Source of the DNA: a virus | Direction: 5' to 3' (one strand) | IMG/VR virus record: IMGVR_UViG_3300042868_008486 | Span: 1 to 64,000 of that record | DNA length: 64,000 nucleotides | Shown: positions 32,342 through 62,489 of the stretch, in pieces | How positions within the stretch are numbered: position 1 is the first letter of the stretch | Layout of the letters: the number at the start of each line of letters is the position of its first letter | Notes under the pieces: model-generated | The model's database searches: none | What the model was told of the DNA's origin: nothing | The model's input: the letters and a program-made list of their open reading frames with translations, nothing else | Made by a program: the position numbers and the translations under genes

Positions 32342-33024
32342 CAATCTTTTGGATTGTCTTTGGTGGCATATTTAACCCCCATAATAGTACCGACGATACT
32401 AAATGCGTTTGTTAATAGAATTCCGAACATATTACTCCAAGCCGGACCGATTGTATTAACTTCCTTATTCATAATAATTGAGAAGATATACATCCCCGTA
32501 GTCACGATTGCTATGAATGCGATAACACCTAACGCAACTTTAACGATATTACCCATCAATTCGGTTTGGGTTTTTTTCTGTAATAAATCTAAGTCAGTTA
32601 ATGCGTTAGTCTTTGCGTGTTCAGCATCTTCTCTCGCCAACTCAGTTCGTTTCATTTCATCCTGAAGTTCGTTTTGAATTCTTTCATTCTCTTCTTTCCA
32701 GGTAAGAAGTTCATTATTTTGACATTCAATTTGTTTTTTGGAATTCTCAACGTTATCTAACGTAATTTGTAACTCGTCTAATATTCGAACATTTTCGGTA
32801 TTTAACGATTCTAATTCCTTATTCTTATTTTGAATTTGTTTAGTTATATCTAAACGTTTTTTTCGTGATTCTTTGTCTTTTTCAGTGCAAGTTTTAATAT
32901 ATTGTGAGAAGTCAGAATCCTCTTCAGCGTCAATTAATTTCAATAAGTTACCCTCAAGACCAATATTCTTGGTCTTGTAAAGGTCAATTAATTGTTTTTT
33001 TGTATTTGCACTAAACTTAATCAT
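32338..33024 (-). CDS. coiled-coil membrane protein linked to the two-component genes
   Basis: 228 aa. A heptad-rich coiled coil spans about residues 45-150 (ELESLNTENVRILDELQ), followed by two membrane segments at about 160-180 (VALGVIAFIAIVTTGMYIF) and 195-215. It overlaps the response-regulator stop by 4 nt, so it belongs to the same operon and may anchor or tune the signalling complex. Confidence 0.75.
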   Translation of the reverse strand: MIKFSANTKKQLIDLYKTKNIGLEGNLLKLIDAEEDSDFSQYIKTCTEKDKESRKKRLDITKQIQNKNKELESLNTENVRILDELQITLDNVENSKKQIECQNNELLTWKEENERIQNELQDEMKRTELAREDAEHAKTNALTDLDLLQKKTQTELMGNIVKVALGVIAFIAIVTTGMYIFSIIMNKEVNTIGPAWSNMFGILLTNAFSIVGTIMGVKYATKDNPKDC

Positions 33025-33458
33025 TTATACACTTTGAACTCAGCGGTTCTATTTTTGAAATTAGGGTAATCTTCTCTGAACTCTTCTAATCTTGGTTCAA
33101 TCTCATCTGATTTGACCAACCAAAATTGTGCTCCGGCTTGTAACGCTTTTGCTTGTTCTGATGGTTCATTTGATGATGAAATAATTCCGATAACTACGTG
33201 GTTACCATATTCAAAATTAATCTTTCTCACTAACTCAATTCCGTCAAATGATGAACCAATTATATTTAAATCAACAAATACACATTCAGGTTTTTCTGAG
33301 TTATTTCCTGAATCAAACCATTGTTTAAACATTCTTGCCGCCTCATCTGAGCTATTAACAGATTTTAGTGATAAACTGATATCTAATAACGAACAAGCGT
33401 CTTCAAATACTAAGTGGAATAAATCCTCGTCATCGACTAATAATATAGATTCTATCAT
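33021..33458 (-). CDS. single-domain response regulator
   Basis: 145 aa, receiver domain only. Acidic pocket VDDEDLF near residues 8-14, phospho-acceptor FVDLNIIG near 71 (Asp73), the Ser region IISSS near 97-101 and switch Lys in WLVKSDE near 113. No output domain, so it may act by protein contact. It directly follows the histidine kinase gene, and a TATTTAT box precedes it, suggesting late expression. Confidence 0.85.
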   Translation of the reverse strand: MIESILLVDDEDLFHLVFEDACSLLDISLSLKSVNSSDEAARMFKQWFDSGNNSEKPECVFVDLNIIGSSFDGIELVRKINFEYGNHVVIGIISSSNEPSEQAKALQAGAQFWLVKSDEIEPRLEEFREDYPNFKNRTAEFKVYK

Positions 33459-33508
33459 TTTTTAAATTTTATAACAATAAATACTTTACTTTTAAAAGTA
33501 ATTTGGAT

Positions 33509-35647
33509 TCACCTCAATTTTATTTTCATTTTTGTACCTGTTTCATTTTTTTCACAAGTAATGGTAAAACCGTGTTCGTGTAAAATTGCGATACAAATAT
33601 TCAACCCCAAACCTGTTCCTGATTCTTTTTGACCTTCTTTTCTATGATATGGTTGTGATAGGTATTCGAATTCTGATTGAGTCATACCACGACCATTGTC
33701 CTGTAATGCTAAGTGGTTTTCGTCTTCCATATAGACCGCAACCACCTTATTATCCGAATCGTTATATTTTAAACCATTACGAATTAAATTATCAATTGCC
33801 GTACAAAATAGAGGTTCATTAACATCCAATGTTGGTAACCAATCAATTGCAACTTGACTTGAATATGCGGTGGATGTTAAGTATGAGTTTAAGATGTCTC
33901 TTAGATTTAAATTTTCTTTTGTTAATACAACATCTTGTTTAACTAAATTTGTAAATTCATAAACTCCCTTATAAACTTTCTGTGTATGTTTTAAACCTTC
34001 CTTCAACATTTTAAGTGGGGCTTCCAATTTTAATGTTTCAATATCTTCAGGTTTTAATCTTCGTTCTAACGAACTAATTCCTCTTGGGATGTATGTGTTT
34101 ATCCCTGAGTGCATATCGTGTCTTAGAATCTTCGCAGCGTGTTCTAAATATGTGTTTTTCTTTTCTATCTCTCTCTTTTGTTCATAAGAAGTTGTAATGT
34201 CTGTTGAAATTTTCATAACACGATAAACCTTACCATCAACACTAAGAATTGGGTTGTAAGTTGCTTGTAAATAAACTAAAGAACCATCTTTTTTAATTCT
34301 AATAATTTCACCTGAAAATGATAAACCATCTTTTAATTTTTCCCAAAAAATACGATACTCGTCACTTTTTGAATATTCTTCATCCACAAAAATTCTATGA
34401 TGATTTCCAATTACTTCAGCATTAGATGAATATCCCATAGTTTCTAAGAACAAATTATTGGCAAAAACGATATTACCTTCTAAATCAAATTCAATAACCG
34501 CATTAGATTTATTAATAGCATTCATTCTATTATGAATTTCTACTTCCTTTTTTTTAAGTTCAGTAACGTCTTGTCTAATTGACGTATAACCTTTTACTTT
34601 ACCGCTATCACTATCAAAATCGGCTTTAATATAGGTGTCAACCCAATATAATTCACCTTCTTTATTTTTATTGATAACTAAGTCATTCCAAATCCCACCT
34701 TTTTTAACGGTCTTATACATATTAGCCCAAAATTTCTTATCGTGAATTCCCGAATTAACAATATTATGGTCTTTACCTAAACACTCATCAAGACTCCAAC
34801 CTGAAACATCTTCAAATTTTTTATTAACGTAAACAATTTTACCTCTTTTATCTGTTTTACTGACCAAGACTGATGAGTCCACAAAATGTTCAAACTCACC
34901 TAATTCATTTTTAAGTTCATTACCTTCTTGAACTGAATAAGCAAATGAAAATAATGACGATAACATTTCGGCAAAATTTACTTCCACTTTATGCCATTCC
35001 CTAACCGTATAACTTTCAATACATATTACACCAATTACTTCACCTTTATAAACGATTGGAACGTCAAGCATTGCTCTAACACCTAATGGGTCTGAATAAG
35101 TTTCTTTAAAACATTGTGTTGATGGATGTAAATTAACATCATTTGCAATTATAATCGGATTTGTTTTAAGTCCATTGAAGTATGGTTTATAATCTTTTTC
35201 AAAAATCTCAATCCCGTTAACCCATTCACCTGTTTTTTTCTCATATAATTGTTCACACACAATACTTGTTTTTTTCTGGTTATATAACCAAATTGAACAT
35301 CTATCGGCACATACGCTATTTGTAACTTCTTTAGTTAATAATTTAGCACCTTCATTAACATTTCCCTCATAAAATAAATGATTGTGTGTTTGTGATATTA
35401 AAGTTTCATTTAAATTTCTTGCGTAATAATTCAATTTAATTGATTCTTTATTTTTTTTCACATAATCATAAATTATTTTGAAAAATAGGGGGATAAATAA
35501 AACAAAACAGATAAATTCAACCCACATTACTGAATTACATAGGGGTAGAATATTAAACACCACTAAAAGTTTTATTATCAAAAACATTGTCATCACAACG
35601 ACTGAGGTATAAAAAGAATATCGTGTGTTTTTTTCTAGTGATATCAT
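33509..35647 (-). CDS. membrane sensor histidine kinase with GAF and two PAS domains
   Basis: 712 aa. Two membrane segments at about 10-60; GAF domain about 80-250 (CADRCSIWLYN, RAMLDVPIVYKGEVIGVICIE); PAS 1 about 255-370 (KIVYVNKKFEDVSGWSLDE); PAS 2 about 375-495. The H-box LRHDMHSGIN is near 505 and the HATPase near 590-712, with N box IDNLIRNGLKYND, G1 DNGRGM and G2 GTGLGLNI. All catalytic parts look intact. A complete kinase-regulator pair is very unusual in a phage. TATTTAT lies 17 nt before the ATG. Confidence 0.9.
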   Translation of the reverse strand: MISLEKNTRYSFYTSVVVMTMFLIIKLLVVFNILPLCNSVMWVEFICFVLFIPLFFKIIYDYVKKNKESIKLNYYARNLNETLISQTHNHLFYEGNVNEGAKLLTKEVTNSVCADRCSIWLYNQKKTSIVCEQLYEKKTGEWVNGIEIFEKDYKPYFNGLKTNPIIIANDVNLHPSTQCFKETYSDPLGVRAMLDVPIVYKGEVIGVICIESYTVREWHKVEVNFAEMLSSLFSFAYSVQEGNELKNELGEFEHFVDSSVLVSKTDKRGKIVYVNKKFEDVSGWSLDECLGKDHNIVNSGIHDKKFWANMYKTVKKGGIWNDLVINKNKEGELYWVDTYIKADFDSDSGKVKGYTSIRQDVTELKKKEVEIHNRMNAINKSNAVIEFDLEGNIVFANNLFLETMGYSSNAEVIGNHHRIFVDEEYSKSDEYRIFWEKLKDGLSFSGEIIRIKKDGSLVYLQATYNPILSVDGKVYRVMKISTDITTSYEQKREIEKKNTYLEHAAKILRHDMHSGINTYIPRGISSLERRLKPEDIETLKLEAPLKMLKEGLKHTQKVYKGVYEFTNLVKQDVVLTKENLNLRDILNSYLTSTAYSSQVAIDWLPTLDVNEPLFCTAIDNLIRNGLKYNDSDNKVVAVYMEDENHLALQDNGRGMTQSEFEYLSQPYHRKEGQKESGTGLGLNICIAILHEHGFTITCEKNETGTKMKIKLR

Positions 35648-36326: not shown

Positions 36327-37130
36327 ATGATAAAAATTGGTTCGAAAGGTGAGGACGTGAAAAAATTACAAGTAAAATTAGGTTTAACACCTGATGGTAA
36401 CTTTGGTCCCAACACAGAAAAGGCCGTTAAAGAATGGCAAACAAAAAATGGTTTAACACCTGATGGTATTGTTGGGGAAAAATCATTAACCCTATTAGGT
36501 ATTACCTCAGTGGTAACACCAACATCTAATTCGATTGACTTGTCAAAATTAAAAGGACATATTCCTGATTCAGTGTTAGAACAAATACCGGAGGTTCGAC
36601 TAAGGTTCAATTGTAACTCAGTTTTAAGATTATGTCATTTCTTGGCTCAATGTCATCACGAGTCAGGAGGGTTTAAAGCGGTCTCTGAAAATTTAAACTA
36701 TTCATCAAAAGGTCTTAAAAATACATTTGGTAAATATTTTCCAGGTAACTTATCAGAATCTTATGCAAAACAACCTGAAAAAATCGCATCAAGAGTTTAT
36801 AGTAGTAGAATGGGGAATGGTGACGAATCAAGTCAAGAAGGTTGGAAATACCGTGGCCGAGGTTACATCCAATTAACCGGAAAACAAAATTATAGTAAGT
36901 TCACATCATTTATTGGTGAGGATTGTATCGGTAATCCTGATTTGGTTGCTAACAAATATCCGTTGGCATCTGCGGCATTTTTCTTTGATTCTAATAAACT
37001 ATGGTCAATTTGTGATTTAGGTGCAACTGATGATGTTGTTACTAAAGTTACCAAACGTGTTAACGGAGGAACAATTGGATTATCTGACCGTATCAAACAT
37101 TTTAAAGAATACCATTCATTATTAAAATAA
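36327..37130 (+). CDS. endolysin: peptidoglycan-binding plus GH19
   Basis: 267 aa. PG_binding_1 at residues 1-60 (GSKGEDVKKLQVKLGL, DGNFGPNTEKAVKEW). The GH19 chitinase/lysozyme domain follows at about 75-265, with catalytic Glu in HFLAQCHHESGGF near 113, second acid region DESSQEGWKYRGRGYIQLTG near 168-187 and NYSKF. It cleaves the glycan chain for lysis. No signal peptide, so it needs a holin; TATTTAT lies 20 nt upstream. A decayed second copy of the GH19 domain is at 38481-39719. Confidence 0.9.
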   Translation: MIKIGSKGEDVKKLQVKLGLTPDGNFGPNTEKAVKEWQTKNGLTPDGIVGEKSLTLLGITSVVTPTSNSIDLSKLKGHIPDSVLEQIPEVRLRFNCNSVLRLCHFLAQCHHESGGFKAVSENLNYSSKGLKNTFGKYFPGNLSESYAKQPEKIASRVYSSRMGNGDESSQEGWKYRGRGYIQLTGKQNYSKFTSFIGEDCIGNPDLVANKYPLASAAFFFDSNKLWSICDLGATDDVVTKVTKRVNGGTIGLSDRIKHFKEYHSLLK

Positions 37131-37156: not shown

Positions 37157-37828
37157 ATGATGAAAGAACGAATAGCTGGAATAGCGTCATTACCTGACAG
37201 AGTTGATTGTTTAGAAGATACTGTCAATAGTTTATATGACCAAGTTGATAGGATTGTTGTTGGATTGAATAATTATACTGAAATTCCTGAATTTTTAAAA
37301 ATGAAGAAGATTGATGCTTATTTACTTGACAATAGTTTAGGTGATGCTGCAAAATTTTATAAAATTGACGATTTCCCAAATCATTATTATTTTTCTTGTG
37401 ATGATGATATTATATATCCAAATAACTATTGTGATGTCTTAATTGAAAAATGTGAAAAATATAAATCAATTGTTGGGTTACACGGGGTTATTTTAAGAAA
37501 ACCTGTTACAAGTTATTATAAAAACAGAACCGTTTATCATTGTCTAAAACCATTAAATCGAGATATTGAAGTTGATTTACTTGGTAGTGGTGCTTGTTTA
37601 ATTGACACCTCAATGCTGAAAATAAGTATCAATGATTTTCCAATTCCAAATATGGGTGATATTTGGTTAGGGGATTTATGTAAAAAACAGAATATAACAT
37701 CATATACCATTGAAAGAGGTGATAATTGGTTATTATATAATGAAAAAATGAATAATAAATGGACAATATTTGACGATTTTAAATCGAAAAAAGATATTGA
37801 ACAAACCAAAATAGTTTCAAAATGGTAA
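37157..37828 (+). CDS. glycosyltransferase-like protein
   Basis: 223 aa; it could also start at the second ATG of ATGATG. A GT-A-like fold is suggested by AGIASLPDRVDCLEDTVNSL at the N-terminus, YFSCDDDIIYPNNY near 77-90 (DxD-type metal site) and DLLGSGACLIDTSML near 140. Probably adds sugars to a phage or host surface molecule. It overlaps the methyltransferase gene by 7 nt. TATTTAT lies 10 nt upstream. Confidence 0.8.
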   Translation: MMKERIAGIASLPDRVDCLEDTVNSLYDQVDRIVVGLNNYTEIPEFLKMKKIDAYLLDNSLGDAAKFYKIDDFPNHYYFSCDDDIIYPNNYCDVLIEKCEKYKSIVGLHGVILRKPVTSYYKNRTVYHCLKPLNRDIEVDLLGSGACLIDTSMLKISINDFPIPNMGDIWLGDLCKKQNITSYTIERGDNWLLYNEKMNNKWTIFDDFKSKKDIEQTKIVSKW

Positions 37829-38511
37829 AGACAACAATTAAATACAATAATACTAATATCATATTTGAAGGATTATTTGATAGTGACCATATCTATCGAC
37901 ACTTAAACATAACTAATAATTTTTACGAATTAAAATTATTGGAGAAAATTAAATCTTTAAACCTTAAAGGGACTTATGTTGATGTTGGAGCAAATATAGG
38001 TAATCACACCCTATTTTTTTCTAAGTTTTGCCCATCTGACAAAGTAGTTTCAATTGAGTTATCTCAAAACATTTTTAACACATTAAAACGAAACGTCACT
38101 GAAAATAACAATCTTCAAAATGTTGAGGTGATTAATGTTGGTGTCGGTGAAAAATATAAAACAGTAACAATTTCAGATATGGATGTTACTAATGTTGGTA
38201 TGACAAAAATAACCGGTGATGGGGGTGACATAATTGTTGACACGCTTGACAATCTATTACAAAATGAATCTAACATTTCAATAATTAAATTAGATGTTGA
38301 GGGTTATGAAAAAAACGCATTAATAGGTGCTAAAGAAATAATTAAAAAACATTCCCCAATAATAATCGCCGAACTTAAAGACGATAAGGAATTTAACGAG
38401 TTTAAAGAAATTGCTGATGAAATAGGGTATGAGACCGATAAAGTCAATTACGCATCAACCCCAACTTATATTTGGGTTAAAAAAAAAAAGATTATAAATT
38501 CGTTTATATAA
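37822..38511 (+). CDS. FkbM-family methyltransferase
   Basis: 229 aa. SAM-binding motif I YVDVGANIGNHTLFFSKF near residues 53-70, acidic loop VSIELSQN, and IIKLDVEGYEKNAL near 154-167, the FkbM signature. It methylates sugars or small molecules. The C-terminus runs through A AAA AAG at 38484-38490 and stops at 38511, while the -1 frame continues into a glycosyltransferase, so a fusion product by frameshift is possible. Confidence 0.85.
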   Translation: MVKTTIKYNNTNIIFEGLFDSDHIYRHLNITNNFYELKLLEKIKSLNLKGTYVDVGANIGNHTLFFSKFCPSDKVVSIELSQNIFNTLKRNVTENNNLQNVEVINVGVGEKYKTVTISDMDVTNVGMTKITGDGGDIIVDTLDNLLQNESNISIIKLDVEGYEKNALIGAKEIIKKHSPIIIAELKDDKEFNEFKEIADEIGYETDKVNYASTPTYIWVKKKKIINSFI

Positions 38512-39719
38512 TACCATCATACGAAAGGTATGTTAAAGTTAAAAATCTAATTGACGGTATTTTATCCCAAACTGAGGATTGTTTAATAATTTTATTAGAC
38601 GATGGGTCCAAAGATGTTAGATACAATGAATTTAAAACCTACAATAATTTAGTTTATCTAAAAAATCCAACTAACAACGGTAAAGATAATTTTTGGAAAA
38701 CTGTAAATAAGTTGTTGGATGAAATGTCCAAATACACATTTAAATATGGTGTAATGACCGGTGATGATTTTGAATTGGTGGAGAATTATCAGTCAAGATT
38801 ATTAAGTTATATTAATGACTCTGATATTGTTAGGTTATTTACACAAACAAGTGTTACAACCACAAATTGGGGTTATGTGAATTGGATTGATGGGGCGTTT
38901 TGTGCACCTTACTCGTTCTTTAAACGAATTAACTTTGAGTTATTTCCAATCATAAAAAGACGTAATCAGATGTCGTCAGGTGTTGGACAACAAATGAGCC
39001 AACGACTAAATAGTTTAAAATTTAGTGTTAAAAATTATGGGTCATTAATTATTCATAATGGAAATGATGATTCAAAAATGCACCCAACTTTAAGAAAACG
39101 TCAACCATTAGAAACTGATTTGACCAACATAGAATTTGAAATTCAGAAATTAATGATAAGTACATCAGTTACCTCTGAAAATGTTGAGATACCCGTAACT
39201 AATGTAAATGTTAAAACATTATCCTCAGAAAACGTTTTAGATATTTTAAAATTAAAAAACCATATCCCTGATTCGATATTACTACAATTACCAATTATTA
39301 TTAATAGATTCAATTGTAATACAATTATACGATTATCACATTTATTATCTCAATGCCACTATAACACAAATGGTTTTAATAAAGAGGTGGTACGTGAAAA
39401 ACCTAACACCAAAATAATAAATAGAAAAACATTTAATCAAAAAGTATTTAACCACCTTCAAATATTGACTGAAAAAGATTATATTATATTTGGTAAAAAA
39501 ATTGGTAAAAATTTGGTTGATAACCCAAGTTTGGTAGAATTAAAATATTCGTTAGTTGCATCCGCTTATATTTTTGACGTTAAAAATTTATGGTCTATTT
39601 GTGATTTTGGAATTAATGAATTGGTTGTTGGGAAATTAACTAAACGTATATATGAGGATTCAAAAAGTGTATCAGATAGGTATATGTTATTTAAAAAATA
39701 TTATAACATCTTAAAATAA
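38481..39719 (+). CDS. GT2 glycosyltransferase fused to an inactive GH19 domain
   Basis: The open frame has no start codon until ATG 38712 (335 aa), but residues encoded from 38490 read YKFVYIIPSYERY and CLIILLDDGSKD, the true start of a GT2 domain. The most likely route is a -1 shift from the upstream methyltransferase. The C-terminal 165 residues copy the endolysin GH19 domain (LKNHIPDSILLQLP against LKGHIPDSVLEQIP), with the catalytic block HHESGGF changed to HYNTNGF. It may be a sugar-adding enzyme tethered to the wall. Confidence 0.75.
   Translation, partial: KKKDYKFVYIIPSYERYVKVKNLIDGILSQTEDCLIILLDDGSKDVRYNEFKTYNNLVYLKNPTNNGKDNFWKTVNKLLDEMSKYTFKYGVMTGDDFELVENYQSRLLSYINDSDIVRLFTQTSVTTTNWGYVNWIDGAFCAPYSFFKRINFELFPIIKRRNQMSSGVGQQMSQRLNSLKFSVKNYGSLIIHNGNDDSKMHPTLRKRQPLETDLTNIEFEIQKLMISTSVTSENVEIPVTNVNVKTLSSENVLDILKLKNHIPDSILLQLPIIINRFNCNTIIRLSHLLSQCHYNTNGFNKEVVREKPNTKIINRKTFNQKVFNHLQILTEKDYIIFGKKIGKNLVDNPSLVELKYSLVASAYIFDVKNLWSICDFGINELVVGKLTKRIYEDSKSVSDRYMLFKKYYNILK
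38484..38490 (+). promoter_or_regulatory. dnaX-type -1 frameshift heptamer A AAA AAG
   Basis: In the methyltransferase frame an 11-A run ends exactly as A AAA AAG. The -1 frame has a stop just upstream (TAA at 38478) and opens at 38481 into a glycosyltransferase lacking its own start. Only a weak hairpin (CATAC/GTATG at 38518-38532) is seen downstream. Confidence 0.55.
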
Positions 39720-50223: not shown

Positions 50224-50640
50224 TTAATCTTGAATACTAGGGATAACTTCCGAATCTAACCAATGTTCAAATTCATAATAACCACCCATTTCTTTTAATA
50301 CATTTTGTAATCGAACATCCTCATCAGATAATGTTGAATAGAAATCAAACTCAAGTAAATAACCACGTTTATCAGTAGCAATAACACCTAAGTATTCATC
50401 ACCGTAAAATCTAATCTCTCCGTAATATTCAATCTCACCATTTTCAATTTCCTTCATTTCAGAATAGGTAAATTTAATGGGTAAAGATTTAATCTCACCT
50501 TCAATTGTCATACCTTCTTTAGTATCGTATTCCTCATTACCGTAACCGGTATTACTATCGTAATCCTCATCGTCATAAACACTTTGTTCAAACAAGTGTT
50601 TGTATTTTTTATACTGACTTTCTGTAATTATTATTTTCAT
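50224..50640 (-). CDS. putative capsid-targeted protein
   Basis: 138 aa. Leader MKIIITESQYKKYKHLFEQ with L-F-E-Q at residues 16-19. The mature part is acidic and beta-rich (TIEGEIKSLPIKFTYSEM), ending in a helical ALEMGG-type segment (VLKEMGGYYEFEHWL) that recalls the LGG modules. TATTTAT lies 5 nt before the ATG. Function unknown. Confidence 0.75.
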   Translation of the reverse strand: MKIIITESQYKKYKHLFEQSVYDDEDYDSNTGYGNEEYDTKEGMTIEGEIKSLPIKFTYSEMKEIENGEIEYYGEIRFYGDEYLGVIATDKRGYLLEFDFYSTLSDEDVRLQNVLKEMGGYYEFEHWLDSEVIPSIQD

Positions 50641-52097: not shown

Positions 52098-52652
52098 TTA
52101 TGCAAATTCAATTTCACACAGATACCCCATTTTATCTGTGTAATTTTTTTGAAAGTGTTTTGCAGTTAACCATAAAAATTCATCACGATATTCATTAACA
52201 ACTGCGAAATAATCATCATCATCATTTTCAACAGGGTACAATTCATCAAATGGTCTACCACCATCAACGATTGTGCTGAAATCAATATCAATCCAAACCG
52301 TAACATCTTTATCTTTAGTGTTAACATCAATACGAGCGAACCTAACGTCACCACTTAAATCATCATCACTTAATGTTATTTGGATGTAATCTTTCGACAT
52401 ATATAAATGGGGACTTGATGTTGATTGGTTAAACTTATAACCATCTTCCTCAAAATACTTTAATGGGTTTATGTTATGTTCTTCATTCCATTCTAAAACC
52501 CAACCTTCAAGATGATGGTGAAAAGACATCGGCATACGCATTAACTTCATCAAATTTTCATCAATTGACGCATACCCCCGTTTATCCCAAATCTTTCTAA
52601 ATGATTTTTTCCAAACATCCATTAATTGGTCCTCAGTTATTAATACTTTCAT
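52098..52652 (-). CDS. putative capsid-targeted protein
   Basis: 184 aa. Leader MKVLITEDQLMDVWKKSFRK, helical His/Met-rich middle (MPMSFHHHLEGWVLEWNEEH), then an alpha-beta domain with VWIDIDFSTIVDGGRP, similar to strands in 58676-61161 proteins. It starts 5 nt below the glycosyltransferase stop, so the TATTTA directly before its ATG may be coincidental. Confidence 0.7.
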   Translation of the reverse strand: MKVLITEDQLMDVWKKSFRKIWDKRGYASIDENLMKLMRMPMSFHHHLEGWVLEWNEEHNINPLKYFEEDGYKFNQSTSSPHLYMSKDYIQITLSDDDLSGDVRFARIDVNTKDKDVTVWIDIDFSTIVDGGRPFDELYPVENDDDDYFAVVNEYRDEFLWLTAKHFQKNYTDKMGYLCEIEFA

Positions 52653-56296: not shown

Positions 56297-57511
56297 TTAT
56301 TTTACCGTATCAATACTATTAATTTCCCAATCAATCTCATTGAACATTCGTTTTAATTTATATTCATATGTTCGATTAAACCAATCAACGATTAAATCAG
56401 GATTATTACCAAAGACTTCAAATAATTTAGAGTATCTTGGTTCCAAATATAATCTCCTATCATCTGAACCATAATCATTATCAAAAAACCCAATTAACTT
56501 AGAATTAAGATTAAATCTGTCTTTATCTATAACATAGATGTTAACACCATCTTCTGATGGGCTCATTACAAATTTAACATTCTCAGGTAATAACTGAGGG
56601 GCAACGTGTTTGATGTATTTATCAATCGTATTATCTTTTTTAGATTCGGTATTCTCATTAATAGATTTACCCTCATCTTCACTAAACTCTTCCGCATCAA
56701 CAAGTATTTGAATTTTATTATGGTCAATTCTATCAAAAAAACTACCGGTGATTGGGATTGAGTTGTTTGTTATCTTATTCCACTTATCAACAATATCCAT
56801 AGTTAAATGACTACGATAATTGGGTTGCCAAGTGGCATAACCACCAGCATCACTCTCCGTATAATGAACTATAACTAATGGAATATCTTTAAATCTTGAG
56901 GGATGTAAATAGGGGTCTTTTTTTCTTGTTACCTCCAAATGTGAAATATTGGGATATTCTTTATATAACCATTTCTTAAATAATTCAACCCTTTTATCAA
57001 TTGGAATTGAAACCCCCTCATTAATTACTTCATCATCATCAACAAACTCTTCAGTATCAATAACAATTTTTGCATTATATCCACTAAATTTCCATCTAGG
57101 TATGACAGGTATTTGACCACCTGTAACTTTATTCCATTCGTCACTTATTTCACCCGCTAACCAAGAGTCGTGATTAACCGCATCACTATCGGTTGTATAA
57201 TAAATTTTAATTAACGGATGACCGTCATATGTTGAGGTTTCCAAAAACGAAATCTCGTCAAAATTATTATGTAACCATTTTTTAAATAAGTTAACACTTT
57301 TTTCGGTTGAAATCTCTTCTTTCAACAATCTAAATCTCAATAACGGTTTACCGTTAATTGTTATATCACCCTTGTCATTCTTACCAATGGTTTTAACAAC
57401 AACCTTCTTATTCTTAAATTTCCCACCCATTAATGTATCCCCAACTTTAATGTCGAGTTTAATCATTTCATTAATGGATTTATATTGTTCTTCAGTTATT
57501 ATTATTTTCAT
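56297..57511 (-). CDS. capsid-targeted protein with an internal duplication
   Basis: 404 aa. Leader MKIIITEEQYKSINEMIKLD, a small SH3-like part (GDTLMGGKFKNKKVVVKTIG), then two copies of a domain of about 100 aa: SVNLFKKWLHNNFDEISFLE (near 75) and RVELFKKWLYKEYPNISHLE (near 175). Each has an IKIYYT/IVHYTES strand and ends in a D(T/A)EEF acidic strand. I-N-E sites (EVINEG, KSINEN) sit at the domain borders, suggesting proteolytic release. Last of a four-gene late operon. Confidence 0.8.
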   Translation of the reverse strand: MKIIITEEQYKSINEMIKLDIKVGDTLMGGKFKNKKVVVKTIGKNDKGDITINGKPLLRFRLLKEEISTEKSVNLFKKWLHNNFDEISFLETSTYDGHPLIKIYYTTDSDAVNHDSWLAGEISDEWNKVTGGQIPVIPRWKFSGYNAKIVIDTEEFVDDDEVINEGVSIPIDKRVELFKKWLYKEYPNISHLEVTRKKDPYLHPSRFKDIPLVIVHYTESDAGGYATWQPNYRSHLTMDIVDKWNKITNNSIPITGSFFDRIDHNKIQILVDAEEFSEDEGKSINENTESKKDNTIDKYIKHVAPQLLPENVKFVMSPSEDGVNIYVIDKDRFNLNSKLIGFFDNDYGSDDRRLYLEPRYSKLFEVFGNNPDLIVDWFNRTYEYKLKRMFNEIDWEINSIDTVK

Positions 57512-57520
57512 AGTATCATT

Positions 57521-57949
57521 TTAAATTTTAGTCCTCATCCAACTGAACAAATTTGCGAAATTAGATTTTACTGTTTTGATTCCCCTTAAATTATAAACCT
57601 CACCCAACCACTTCTCTGTAACTTTTTGAATAACAAGGTTGGTCAAATCAAAATATTCATCCAAAACCCACCAAATATCAGAACTAATGTAAACTTCATC
57701 ATTTCGTCTGTTGTAAACCATTAAGTTATAACCTTTTTTATAACGAAATAACGTCCAATCACCATCTGTTTCAGATTGAACAACTTCCAAATCATCAAAC
57801 AGGTGTAAGAACTCCATAAAAGTATCAATATTCAATACTTTACAAAAAGTATCAAACCCACCCATTAAGTCAATAACCTGTTTAACCCCATTGGTTTTAA
57901 TCAACTCTTTAAGTCTCTCAACTTTATTTTCGGTTATTATTATTTTCAT
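57521..57949 (-). CDS. capsid-targeted LMGG-module protein
   Basis: 142 aa. Leader MKIIITENKVERLKELIKTN, then VKQVIDLMGGFDTFCKVLNI, EFLHLFDDLEVVQSETDGDW and TLFRYKKGYNLMVYNRRNDE. It is a clear paralogue of the C-terminal half of 57946-58692 (about half the residues identical by eye). It overlaps that gene's stop by 4 nt. Function unknown. Confidence 0.8.
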   Translation of the reverse strand: MKIIITENKVERLKELIKTNGVKQVIDLMGGFDTFCKVLNIDTFMEFLHLFDDLEVVQSETDGDWTLFRYKKGYNLMVYNRRNDEVYISSDIWWVLDEYFDLTNLVIQKVTEKWLGEVYNLRGIKTVKSNFANLFSWMRTKI

Positions 57950-58692
57950 ATCATTTTAATATAACTAGGACCCAGTAAAGGTTCTGTTCTCTTTAAGTTT
58001 AAGTGGAAAACATCTTCAGCCCACTCCTTAGTGTATTCAATAATACTGTAGTATTCAATACCAAGTTTACCATTTAAAAAATCCCAAATTTCTTTTTCAC
58101 TTATGTAAAGACACTTTAGGAATTTATCGTAAATCATCACATTATTACCTTCCTGATATCTAAATAAAATGTAATCATTTTTATCTTTTGATTGAACTGC
58201 CTCTAAATCATCAAATAGATGTAAAAAGTCCATCGGACCACTAAGATTAAATATTTTACAAAATTTATCCCAACCACCCATTAATTTAATTGTGGTATTA
58301 GGTCCTTCACGATTAAGTATATATTTAAGTTTATCAACTTTATTTTCAGTAATAATACCGTCTTCAAGTTTACCATTAATTAATATTGGGACAATCCAAG
58401 GTTTTCCTGTGTAGTATAATTTTTCACGTAAATATTGTGCAAATCCTTGAACATCATCTTCATCAAAGTAAGCGTCTGCATAAACATCAATATAAACACT
58501 TAATGATGGTTTATGTTTGATATTTATCACTTTAACTTTATCTATATGGCTAAACAATGTTAGATACCAATTACTAGCACTAATCTCTTCATTACGATAA
58601 CGTTCCTTTAGTACGGATAATTCTTCATCAATCAATCGTTGGAATAACCCAAAAACCTTTTTATTTACTTCCTCGTTAATTAATATCTTCAT
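57946..58692 (-). CDS. capsid-targeted two-domain protein with LMGG module
   Basis: 248 aa. Leader MKILINEEVNKKVFGLFQRL; N-terminal alpha-beta domain with VYIDVYADAYFDEDDVQGF (a relative of VWIDIYGYDDTFDFDF at 61161). Then a second, internal leader-like ITENKVDKLKYILNREG near 115, followed by IKLMGGWDKFCKIFNL, FLHLFDDLEAVQS and FRYQEGNNVMIYD. This looks like a fusion of two leader-bearing genes. It overlaps 58676-59182. Confidence 0.8.
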   Translation of the reverse strand: MKILINEEVNKKVFGLFQRLIDEELSVLKERYRNEEISASNWYLTLFSHIDKVKVINIKHKPSLSVYIDVYADAYFDEDDVQGFAQYLREKLYYTGKPWIVPILINGKLEDGIITENKVDKLKYILNREGPNTTIKLMGGWDKFCKIFNLSGPMDFLHLFDDLEAVQSKDKNDYILFRYQEGNNVMIYDKFLKCLYISEKEIWDFLNGKLGIEYYSIIEYTKEWAEDVFHLNLKRTEPLLGPSYIKMI

Positions 58693-61160: not shown

Positions 61161-62489
61161 TTATTTAGAGAGTTCAATCAAATCGGACTCTTTAAACTTA
61201 TATGTTTTACCAACAGTCCCAATTGGGGAATTATTGAAAACATAAACATCCGAACCTTTAATGAATGCCATTCTATCAATAGGTTTATTACTGTAATTAA
61301 CCGCATTTGAGAACCCAATATTTGCTGAATAAATACCATCTTTTAATTCAATATTGGATAATGGTTTAATTTGATACGTTACACCATCAATTGTGGCATC
61401 AATACCATCAATTATGTCTTTTTTTGTGCCAAAACCTGAGATTTTAATATCAGAACCCGGATGAAATTGGTCCCTTATTTTTTCAGCATCAAGTTTTTCT
61501 TGTCTAAAATTGTTAACTATTGATTTAAGTTGGATGTCAAGAAGTTGTTTCATATCATCACTATCAACATCCCTGAATAAATCGGCCATCCAATTAATCA
61601 TTGACGACTCAATATTACCCTCATCATATGTAAATTTGTTATCTTTGATGTCTCTAGCCAAAAATAACTTCATTCTTTCGTGAATTGGTAGTTTAGTGTT
61701 AAAGAAATTGACAATTGACCAACCCCTCTTATCAAATGGAATAGGTTTTACACCGACAACACCCGCAACATACTCATTAGTCGATGGTGTCCAATAATCT
61801 TTAAAGGCAATCTCAAGGGCTTTCTTAATATTTGTTGACTTAATGTAAGACTCAAACTTCACAATATCGGGGAAATATGGAAATACTTTAGAATCAAACA
61901 CATTTTTCCATATATAAATTTTCTTATTCTTAGTTAAAAAGATATCTTTAGACGATAATTCGAAGGTTTCATTAGTAATTGTGTTATGTAATAGTACTTT
62001 ACAACCCGGTGTCTCTTTAATTTCATTAAAAACACGTTCAAGTTCAGATGGAGTGTCAGCAATACCATTAATGTATACTAATTCATATTGAAATCCAAAA
62101 TTAGTGTAATCAATTTCAATTACACATTCATCAATTGGTTCATCAGGAACCAAATCCAACTCCTGTTCATTCAAACTATCTTGTAATATCACCTCATTTG
62201 TGAATATCTTTAAATGGGGGAAACTTTTTCTAAGTCTATATTGTATTTCACTTGTTAAAAAATCAAAATCAAAGGTATCATCATAACCATAAATGTCAAT
62301 CCAAACTTTAATTCCATCATTATATGTCATATGATTAATCTCAACACCATCAATTGATGCTATTGCGTCCTGTGCATCCCAAGAAAACCCCTCACTATTA
62401 GATAGTATATCCTCAACTTGAACATTAATTAAATATTCAAGGATTTCTTTCAGTTTAGTTTCCTTACTCTCAGTAATTATTACTTTCAT
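61161..62489 (-). CDS. large capsid-targeted protein with possible nuclease-like C-terminus
   Basis: 442 aa. Leader MKVIITESKETKLKEILEYL; N-terminal domain with VWIDIYGYDDTFDFDF as at 57946; L-N-E-Q near residues 110-113 is a likely cleavage point. The C-terminal domain has GIDATIDGVTYQIKPLSNIE near 370-389, with Asp and Q-x-K in PD-(D/E)xK spacing, and VYVFNNSPIGTVGKTYKF. I infer release of an injected effector after cleavage; nuclease activity is uncertain because Gln replaces Asp/Glu. Confidence 0.75.
   Translation of the reverse strand: MKVIITESKETKLKEILEYLINVQVEDILSNSEGFSWDAQDAIASIDGVEINHMTYNDGIKVWIDIYGYDDTFDFDFLTSEIQYRLRKSFPHLKIFTNEVILQDSLNEQELDLVPDEPIDECVIEIDYTNFGFQYELVYINGIADTPSELERVFNEIKETPGCKVLLHNTITNETFELSSKDIFLTKNKKIYIWKNVFDSKVFPYFPDIVKFESYIKSTNIKKALEIAFKDYWTPSTNEYVAGVVGVKPIPFDKRGWSIVNFFNTKLPIHERMKLFLARDIKDNKFTYDEGNIESSMINWMADLFRDVDSDDMKQLLDIQLKSIVNNFRQEKLDAEKIRDQFHPGSDIKISGFGTKKDIIDGIDATIDGVTYQIKPLSNIELKDGIYSANIGFSNAVNYSNKPIDRMAFIKGSDVYVFNNSPIGTVGKTYKFKESDLIELSK

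Follow-up and report, generated by a model that had tools for sequence, protein, structure and literature searches.

A poly-A slip site that probably links a methyltransferase to a glycosyltransferase in a tailed-phage-like genome

Organization of the locus

The DNA analyzed here (the window) covers the opening 64 kb of a 186,832-bp IMG/VR virus record (GC 32%). The record resembles a tailed-phage genome and carries an array of 24 tRNA genes that includes tRNA-Lys(UUU). A search with the T4 capsid family Gp23 gave no match, but the controls were equally silent. The features around the junction of a methyltransferase (MT) and a glycosyltransferase (GT) are as follows.

36327..37130, + strand: intact peptidoglycan-binding and GH19 lysozyme gene (Pfam PF01471 and PF00182), a paralogue of the C-terminus of the GT protein
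37157..37828, + strand: gene overlapping the MT start from upstream, probably a second type of glycosyltransferase; no Pfam or PHROG match
37822..38511, + strand: FkbM methyltransferase ORF from ATG 37822, 229 aa, the zero-frame product (PF05050; phrog_8156)
38478..38480, + strand: TAA in the -1 (GT) frame, directly upstream, read from the sequence
38479..38490, + strand: slip site A11G, identical in the related records L003, L004, and L005
38481..39719, + strand: -1-frame ORF of 412 codons (stop 39717-39719), without ATG, GTG, or TTG until 38712
38490..39116, + strand: GT2 (GT-A fold) glycosyltransferase domain (Pfam PF00535, structure model, Foldseek)
39225..39716, + strand: degenerate GH19 (chitinase/lysozyme-like) C-terminal domain

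The zero frame of the MT gene ends GTT AAA AAA AAA AAG ATT ATA AAT TCG TTT ATA TAA, with its stop at 38509-38511. The run is exactly 11 A long (38479-38489) and is followed by G38490. Its 3' end forms the slippery heptamer A_AAA_AAG (38484-38490), which lies in register for a -1 shift and upstream of the zero-frame stop. The TAA at 38478-38480 in the GT frame confines any shift to the A run, and the first potential start codon in that frame is TTG 38712, 231 nt in. An earlier note, made from the letters alone, had described an MT frame ending in an 11-A run read as A AAA AAG shortly before a stop, a -1-frame TAA just upstream, and a GT2 start lacking an initiation codon for about 230 nt. All of these are borne out, the GT2 assignment by a PF00535 match. 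The same note named corrected reads of 10 or 12 A as grounds for refutation. This is half right: the frames are fused only by 12 A or by 9, whereas with 10 A the MT frame would stop immediately and the GT would still lack a start. One A added in the RNA and a -1 ribosomal shift on A_AAA_AAG give an identical protein.

The arrangement exceeds what chance would give. When the whole record was searched for frames that stay open over 150 codons or more and whose first 50 codons or more lack a start, just three further entries came up, two of them overlapping in contig-end low-complexity repeats and one a short frame. A further interrupted frame lies outside the window at 70923-71657 of the record (L028 6923-7657, - strand), where an 83-aa ORF ends in a single TAA followed by ~160 open codons in frame. 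The part after this TAA has 129 codons without a start, and no match was found among named phages; stop readthrough and decay are alternative readings of the arrangement.

The A11 run is the longest A run within any gene of the phage. Across the whole record (G000, the window plus L028-L034), synonymous shuffles predicted more long runs within genes than were found: 46.8 expected against 21 observed for at least 8 A, 20.3 against 6 for at least 9 A, and 36.7 against 20 for at least 7 T. Such depletion is as expected if slipping on these runs matters in the host, and mutation bias could contribute.

Other parts of the window have features of their own. Positions 33021-35647 encode, judging by the ORF translation alone, a PAS/GAF-type sensor histidine kinase-like protein (712 aa) that adjoins a response-regulator-like gene. 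Between 42533 and 62489, many otherwise unlike small proteins have similar N-termini (MKIIITESQ, MKVLITEDQ, MKIIITENK, RLIITESE), for example those at 50224-50640, 52098-52652, 56297-58692, and 61161-62489. The shared leader is perhaps a targeting or packaging signal.

Encoded proteins

The MT matches Pfam PF05050 (Methyltransf_21, E = 3.3e-15, 57 bits against a cut-off of 22.7) and the PHROG methyltransferase family phrog_8156 (E = 1.1e-23). Translated alone, it has a complete FkbM domain and ends in the short tail KKKKIINSFI after the slip run. The GT2 domain matches PF00535 (E = 1.6e-5, 25.3 bits against a cut-off of 23.3), and its first beta strand, YKFVYIIPS, begins one residue past the slip site. 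An AlphaFold model built from nine alignment rows places strand 1 at residues 2-10, counted from GAT 38490. This model is confident only N-terminally (pLDDT 85-90 over the first 60 residues; overall mean only 61.8), and its PDB Foldseek matches are GT-A glycosyltransferases. A start at TTG 38712 was considered and rejected, as according to the model it would remove 74 residues, including the first strands of the GT fold. No relatives of the GT were found in the species-genome collection, and none of the GT2 part among named phages.

The C-terminal domain of the GT protein shares 33% identity (E = 2e-40) with the GH19 that the phage encodes at 36327-37127. It has ~40 residues fewer than the intact copy and falls below the PF00182 profile cut-off (16.8 against 25.5 bits), and the motif QCHHESGGF has become QCHYNTNGF, with loss of the Glu of HHESGGF (HYNTNGF). 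This tail looks like a dead lytic domain reused, a degenerate and shortened paralogue of the lysozyme.

The product of 37157-37828 resembles, by eye, the C-terminal part of a distant relative (L040), in which the similar domain is joined to the GT2 domain; on this likeness it is probably a second glycosyltransferase type. Given the families of the two enzymes and this neighbor, the MT/GT2 pair presumably decorates a glycan.

Relatives with the same frame break

Three other IMG/VR records (L003, L004, and L005) share the frame break: the run is exactly A11G, the MT ends at the same stop, and the GT frame again lacks a start. L003 matches the window without a single difference over 11,236 nt, so it is not an independent case. 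L005 shares an almost identical tract of ~420 nt with the window (about 38330-38750) and is diverged elsewhere, so its junction is probably shared with the window by recombination. In L004 the DNA of both genes, before and after the junction, differs from the window by ~15-20%. Its GT protein is 76-78% identical, the DNA around the junction is ~81-89% identical, and no shared stretch of identity between the two hints at a recent transfer. The frame break and both frames are thus kept in diverged relatives, with selection on the downstream frame, in only two clearly independent junction haplotypes. The middle of the slip-dependent protein also differs among these records: the GT2 domain is duplicated in tandem and in frame in L005 (2738-4018), and L004 (2399-3736) carries in triplicate a SENVETPVTNVNVKTLS linker that occurs once in the window.

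A length-tolerant pattern search of the viral collection, with 4 to 24 bases permitted between the flanks, returned only these three records, all with A11 and none with another run length. The pattern TGGGTN-A11-G, scanned for in viral contigs, also occurs in seven unrelated phage contigs with the run inside an ordinary in-frame gene. At the divergence between the window and its relatives AAA codons are seldom changed (68 of 70 Lys-Lys pairs), and lack of substitution in the A run is by itself weak evidence for selection.

Over the 74 codons of the start-less stretch (38490-38711), the comparison of the window and L004 in the GT frame gives a dN of 0.137, a dS of 0.541, and a ratio of 0.25. 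Ratios in the other two frames (38512-38711) are 0.88 and 1.1, with 7 and 12 stops. The same comparison gives dN/dS values of 0.28 downstream of the start-less part and 0.09 in the MT. This pattern points to purifying selection on the start-less part and, through it, to translation in the GT frame, although part of the signal could predate the loss of a base at the junction.

In-frame relatives and origin of the frame break

Wider searches identified four records (L025, L026, L036, and L037) in which MT, GT2, and a second GT2 (MT-GT2-GT2') form one uninterrupted ORF of ~775-785 aa. At the junction these relatives have PTYFWYKKEVKYDFVYIIPTYERY and PTYFWYKKNEIYDFVYIIPTYERF, against PTYIWVKKKKDYKFVYIIPSYERY in the window's predicted shift product; the three are of equal length across the junction, with no gap. 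In the more distant L040, GT2 is a separate gene whose start, MIDYIYIIPTY, falls at the same place as the slip site. This start and the modelled first strand both indicate that the slip site marks the beginning of the GT domain. The earlier note had held that a whole GT requires a frame change and is made fused to the MT, which agrees with the conserved break in divergent phages and the in-frame form in other relatives. The gap-free alignment over the junction suggests that the MT-GT2 fusion is probably ancestral and that it lost one base.

The N-terminal part of the MT in L025 (3501-4160) is almost identical to the window (37822-38481), and the 3' part of the same MT gene matches L036 and L037, a pattern that marks mosaic recombination inside the L025 MT gene.

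Mechanism and alternative explanations

The reading that we consider likely is that of one bifunctional gene with a slip site acting at the level of expression, in a lineage that depends on slippage for the MT-GT2 fusion. MT and GT2 would have started as a single continuous ORF, and a net loss of one base at the junction in the clade of the window would have produced A11G, so that the DNA frame now ends the protein after the MT. Most transcripts would give MT alone as the main product. When RNA polymerase copies the run as 12 A, the favored route, translation would continue into the GT frame; alternatively, the ribosome may re-pair tRNA-Lys(UUU) by -1 on A_AAA_AAG. Shifted translation would read ...WVKKKKDYKFVYIIPSYERY... 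and yield MT-GT2-(degenerate GH19) as a minority product, with the predicted junction peptide DYKFVYIIPSYER. The sequence, its conservation, the in-frame homologues, and the selection in the GT frame are observations; that slippage occurs, and at what rate, we infer.

RNA-polymerase slippage is placed first because of the A11 run, the lack of significant structure, the lack of a visible Shine-Dalgarno-like stimulator, and the low yield of bare heptamers. Bacterial transcriptional slippage has been described from runs of about 9 (PMC5009743), and the conserved A11 exceeds this length and falls in the size class (about 9 A or T and upward) that characterizes transcriptional-slippage (PTR) genes. 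In C. rodentium tssM1, an A11 run located 28 nt before a stop, without structure or Shine-Dalgarno signal, gives ~20% slippage with one added A, measured on RT-PCR products by mass spectrometry (PMC4256274). The retention of this run in a phage whose genes are otherwise poor in long A and T runs is a further point in favor. In pseudoknot-free folding, the RNA downstream of the run does no better than shuffles in the window or in L004 (z from -0.44 to -0.66 and from -0.39 to +0.31, respectively). Visual inspection of CCCCAACTTATATTTGGGTT, which precedes the run, revealed no Shine-Dalgarno-like stimulator. Between the two, we lean modestly toward RNA polymerase as the main slipper, and both could act together.

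The earlier note had proposed programmed -1 ribosomal frameshifting. As the sole mechanism, of the dnaX/IS3-family type, this is a special case of the reading above, so that the two probabilities overlap, and on its own it is rather unlikely. The heptamer is exact and in the correct register, and with the phage's own tRNA-Lys(UUU) gene it makes ribosomal slipping possible; the zero-frame stop is also close downstream, as at many -1 sites. The mechanism is nevertheless not established, since the heptamer requires 6 A where the run has 11, no stimulators were seen, as described, and the best heptamers without them reach only ~0.3% in E. coli, or at most ~3.7% with the best 3' context (PMC4066793). 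The earlier note left out transcriptional slippage, which is at least as likely. It also missed that the GT protein ends in a degenerate GH19 domain and that some relatives have the fusion in frame.

The other explanations fare less well. Phase variation, in which DNA polymerase slippage would turn the GT off (A11) or on (A12 or A9) within the phage population, is improbable: a homopolymer at the junction of glycan-type genes is the usual setting for slipped-strand switching (PMC3711429), yet all four records have A11 and the length-tolerant search found no other length. We give equally little credence to decay, in which the base loss killed the GT and left a recent pseudogene. The degenerate C-terminal GH19 and the heavy recombination in the region would fit such decay, but three records have an unbroken GT frame of ~1.2-1.8 kb, the start-less part is under selection, and the GT domain has been duplicated in frame in L005. 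Separate synthesis of the GT by re-initiation is highly improbable. Both an AUA overlapping the MT stop (38508-38510) and the TTG at 38712 occur at the same places in the window, L004, and L005; against this, AUA is a very poor start, either start would remove part or all of the modelled first strand, and relatives encode the fusion. Homopolymers are prone to sequencing error, and the earlier note had allowed for an error in the run. The same A11G in separate assemblies, including the diverged L004, makes a sequencing or assembly error very unlikely, the least probable of these readings.

Comparison with known systems

The junction is closest to C. rodentium tssM1, where the zero-frame stop likewise follows A11 by ~20-30 nt, an extra A brings the reading frame back, stimulators are not obvious, and a short and a long product are expected. 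The gene and host differ, and slippage was measured there, whereas in the phage we infer it; the phage instead has diverged relatives that keep the run and others with an in-frame fusion. E. coli dnaX has A_AAA_AAG in the same register, but with a Shine-Dalgarno-like stimulator and a stem-loop, neither of which was found in the phage, where the shift would also lengthen the protein. In the Campylobacter phage CPt10 methyltransferase CPt10_0091, transcriptional slippage was proposed for a poly-A frameshift (PMC2853527). This gene too belongs to a phage and is interrupted at a poly-A tract, but it is a single gene broken near its end and comes without a comparative test, whereas the window has a two-enzyme fusion with a conserved slip site. 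The in-frame MT-GT2-GT2' proteins share homologous MT and GT2 domains and an equal linker length with the predicted fusion, but have no frame break and end in a second GT2 rather than a degenerate GH19.

Slippage-dependent fusions are therefore already known, and a poly-A frame break in a phage had been suggested before (CPt10, PMC2853527). The new elements are the MT/GT enzyme pair and the coexistence of in-frame and slip-dependent forms, a pairing for which no published report was found in searches of an open-access library. Gene-calling programs will annotate this locus as a methyltransferase on its own and a glycosyltransferase cut short. We suggest, tentatively and as a somewhat doubtful extension, that a slippage-controlled pair arose from a constitutive MT-GT fusion, and that A11 was fixed to set the ratio of MT to MT-GT during infection, against the genome-wide avoidance of such runs. 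Related phages carry this fusion in two forms, as a single ORF and as a pair that depends on slippage, which makes it possible to trace and test how a recoding site arose.
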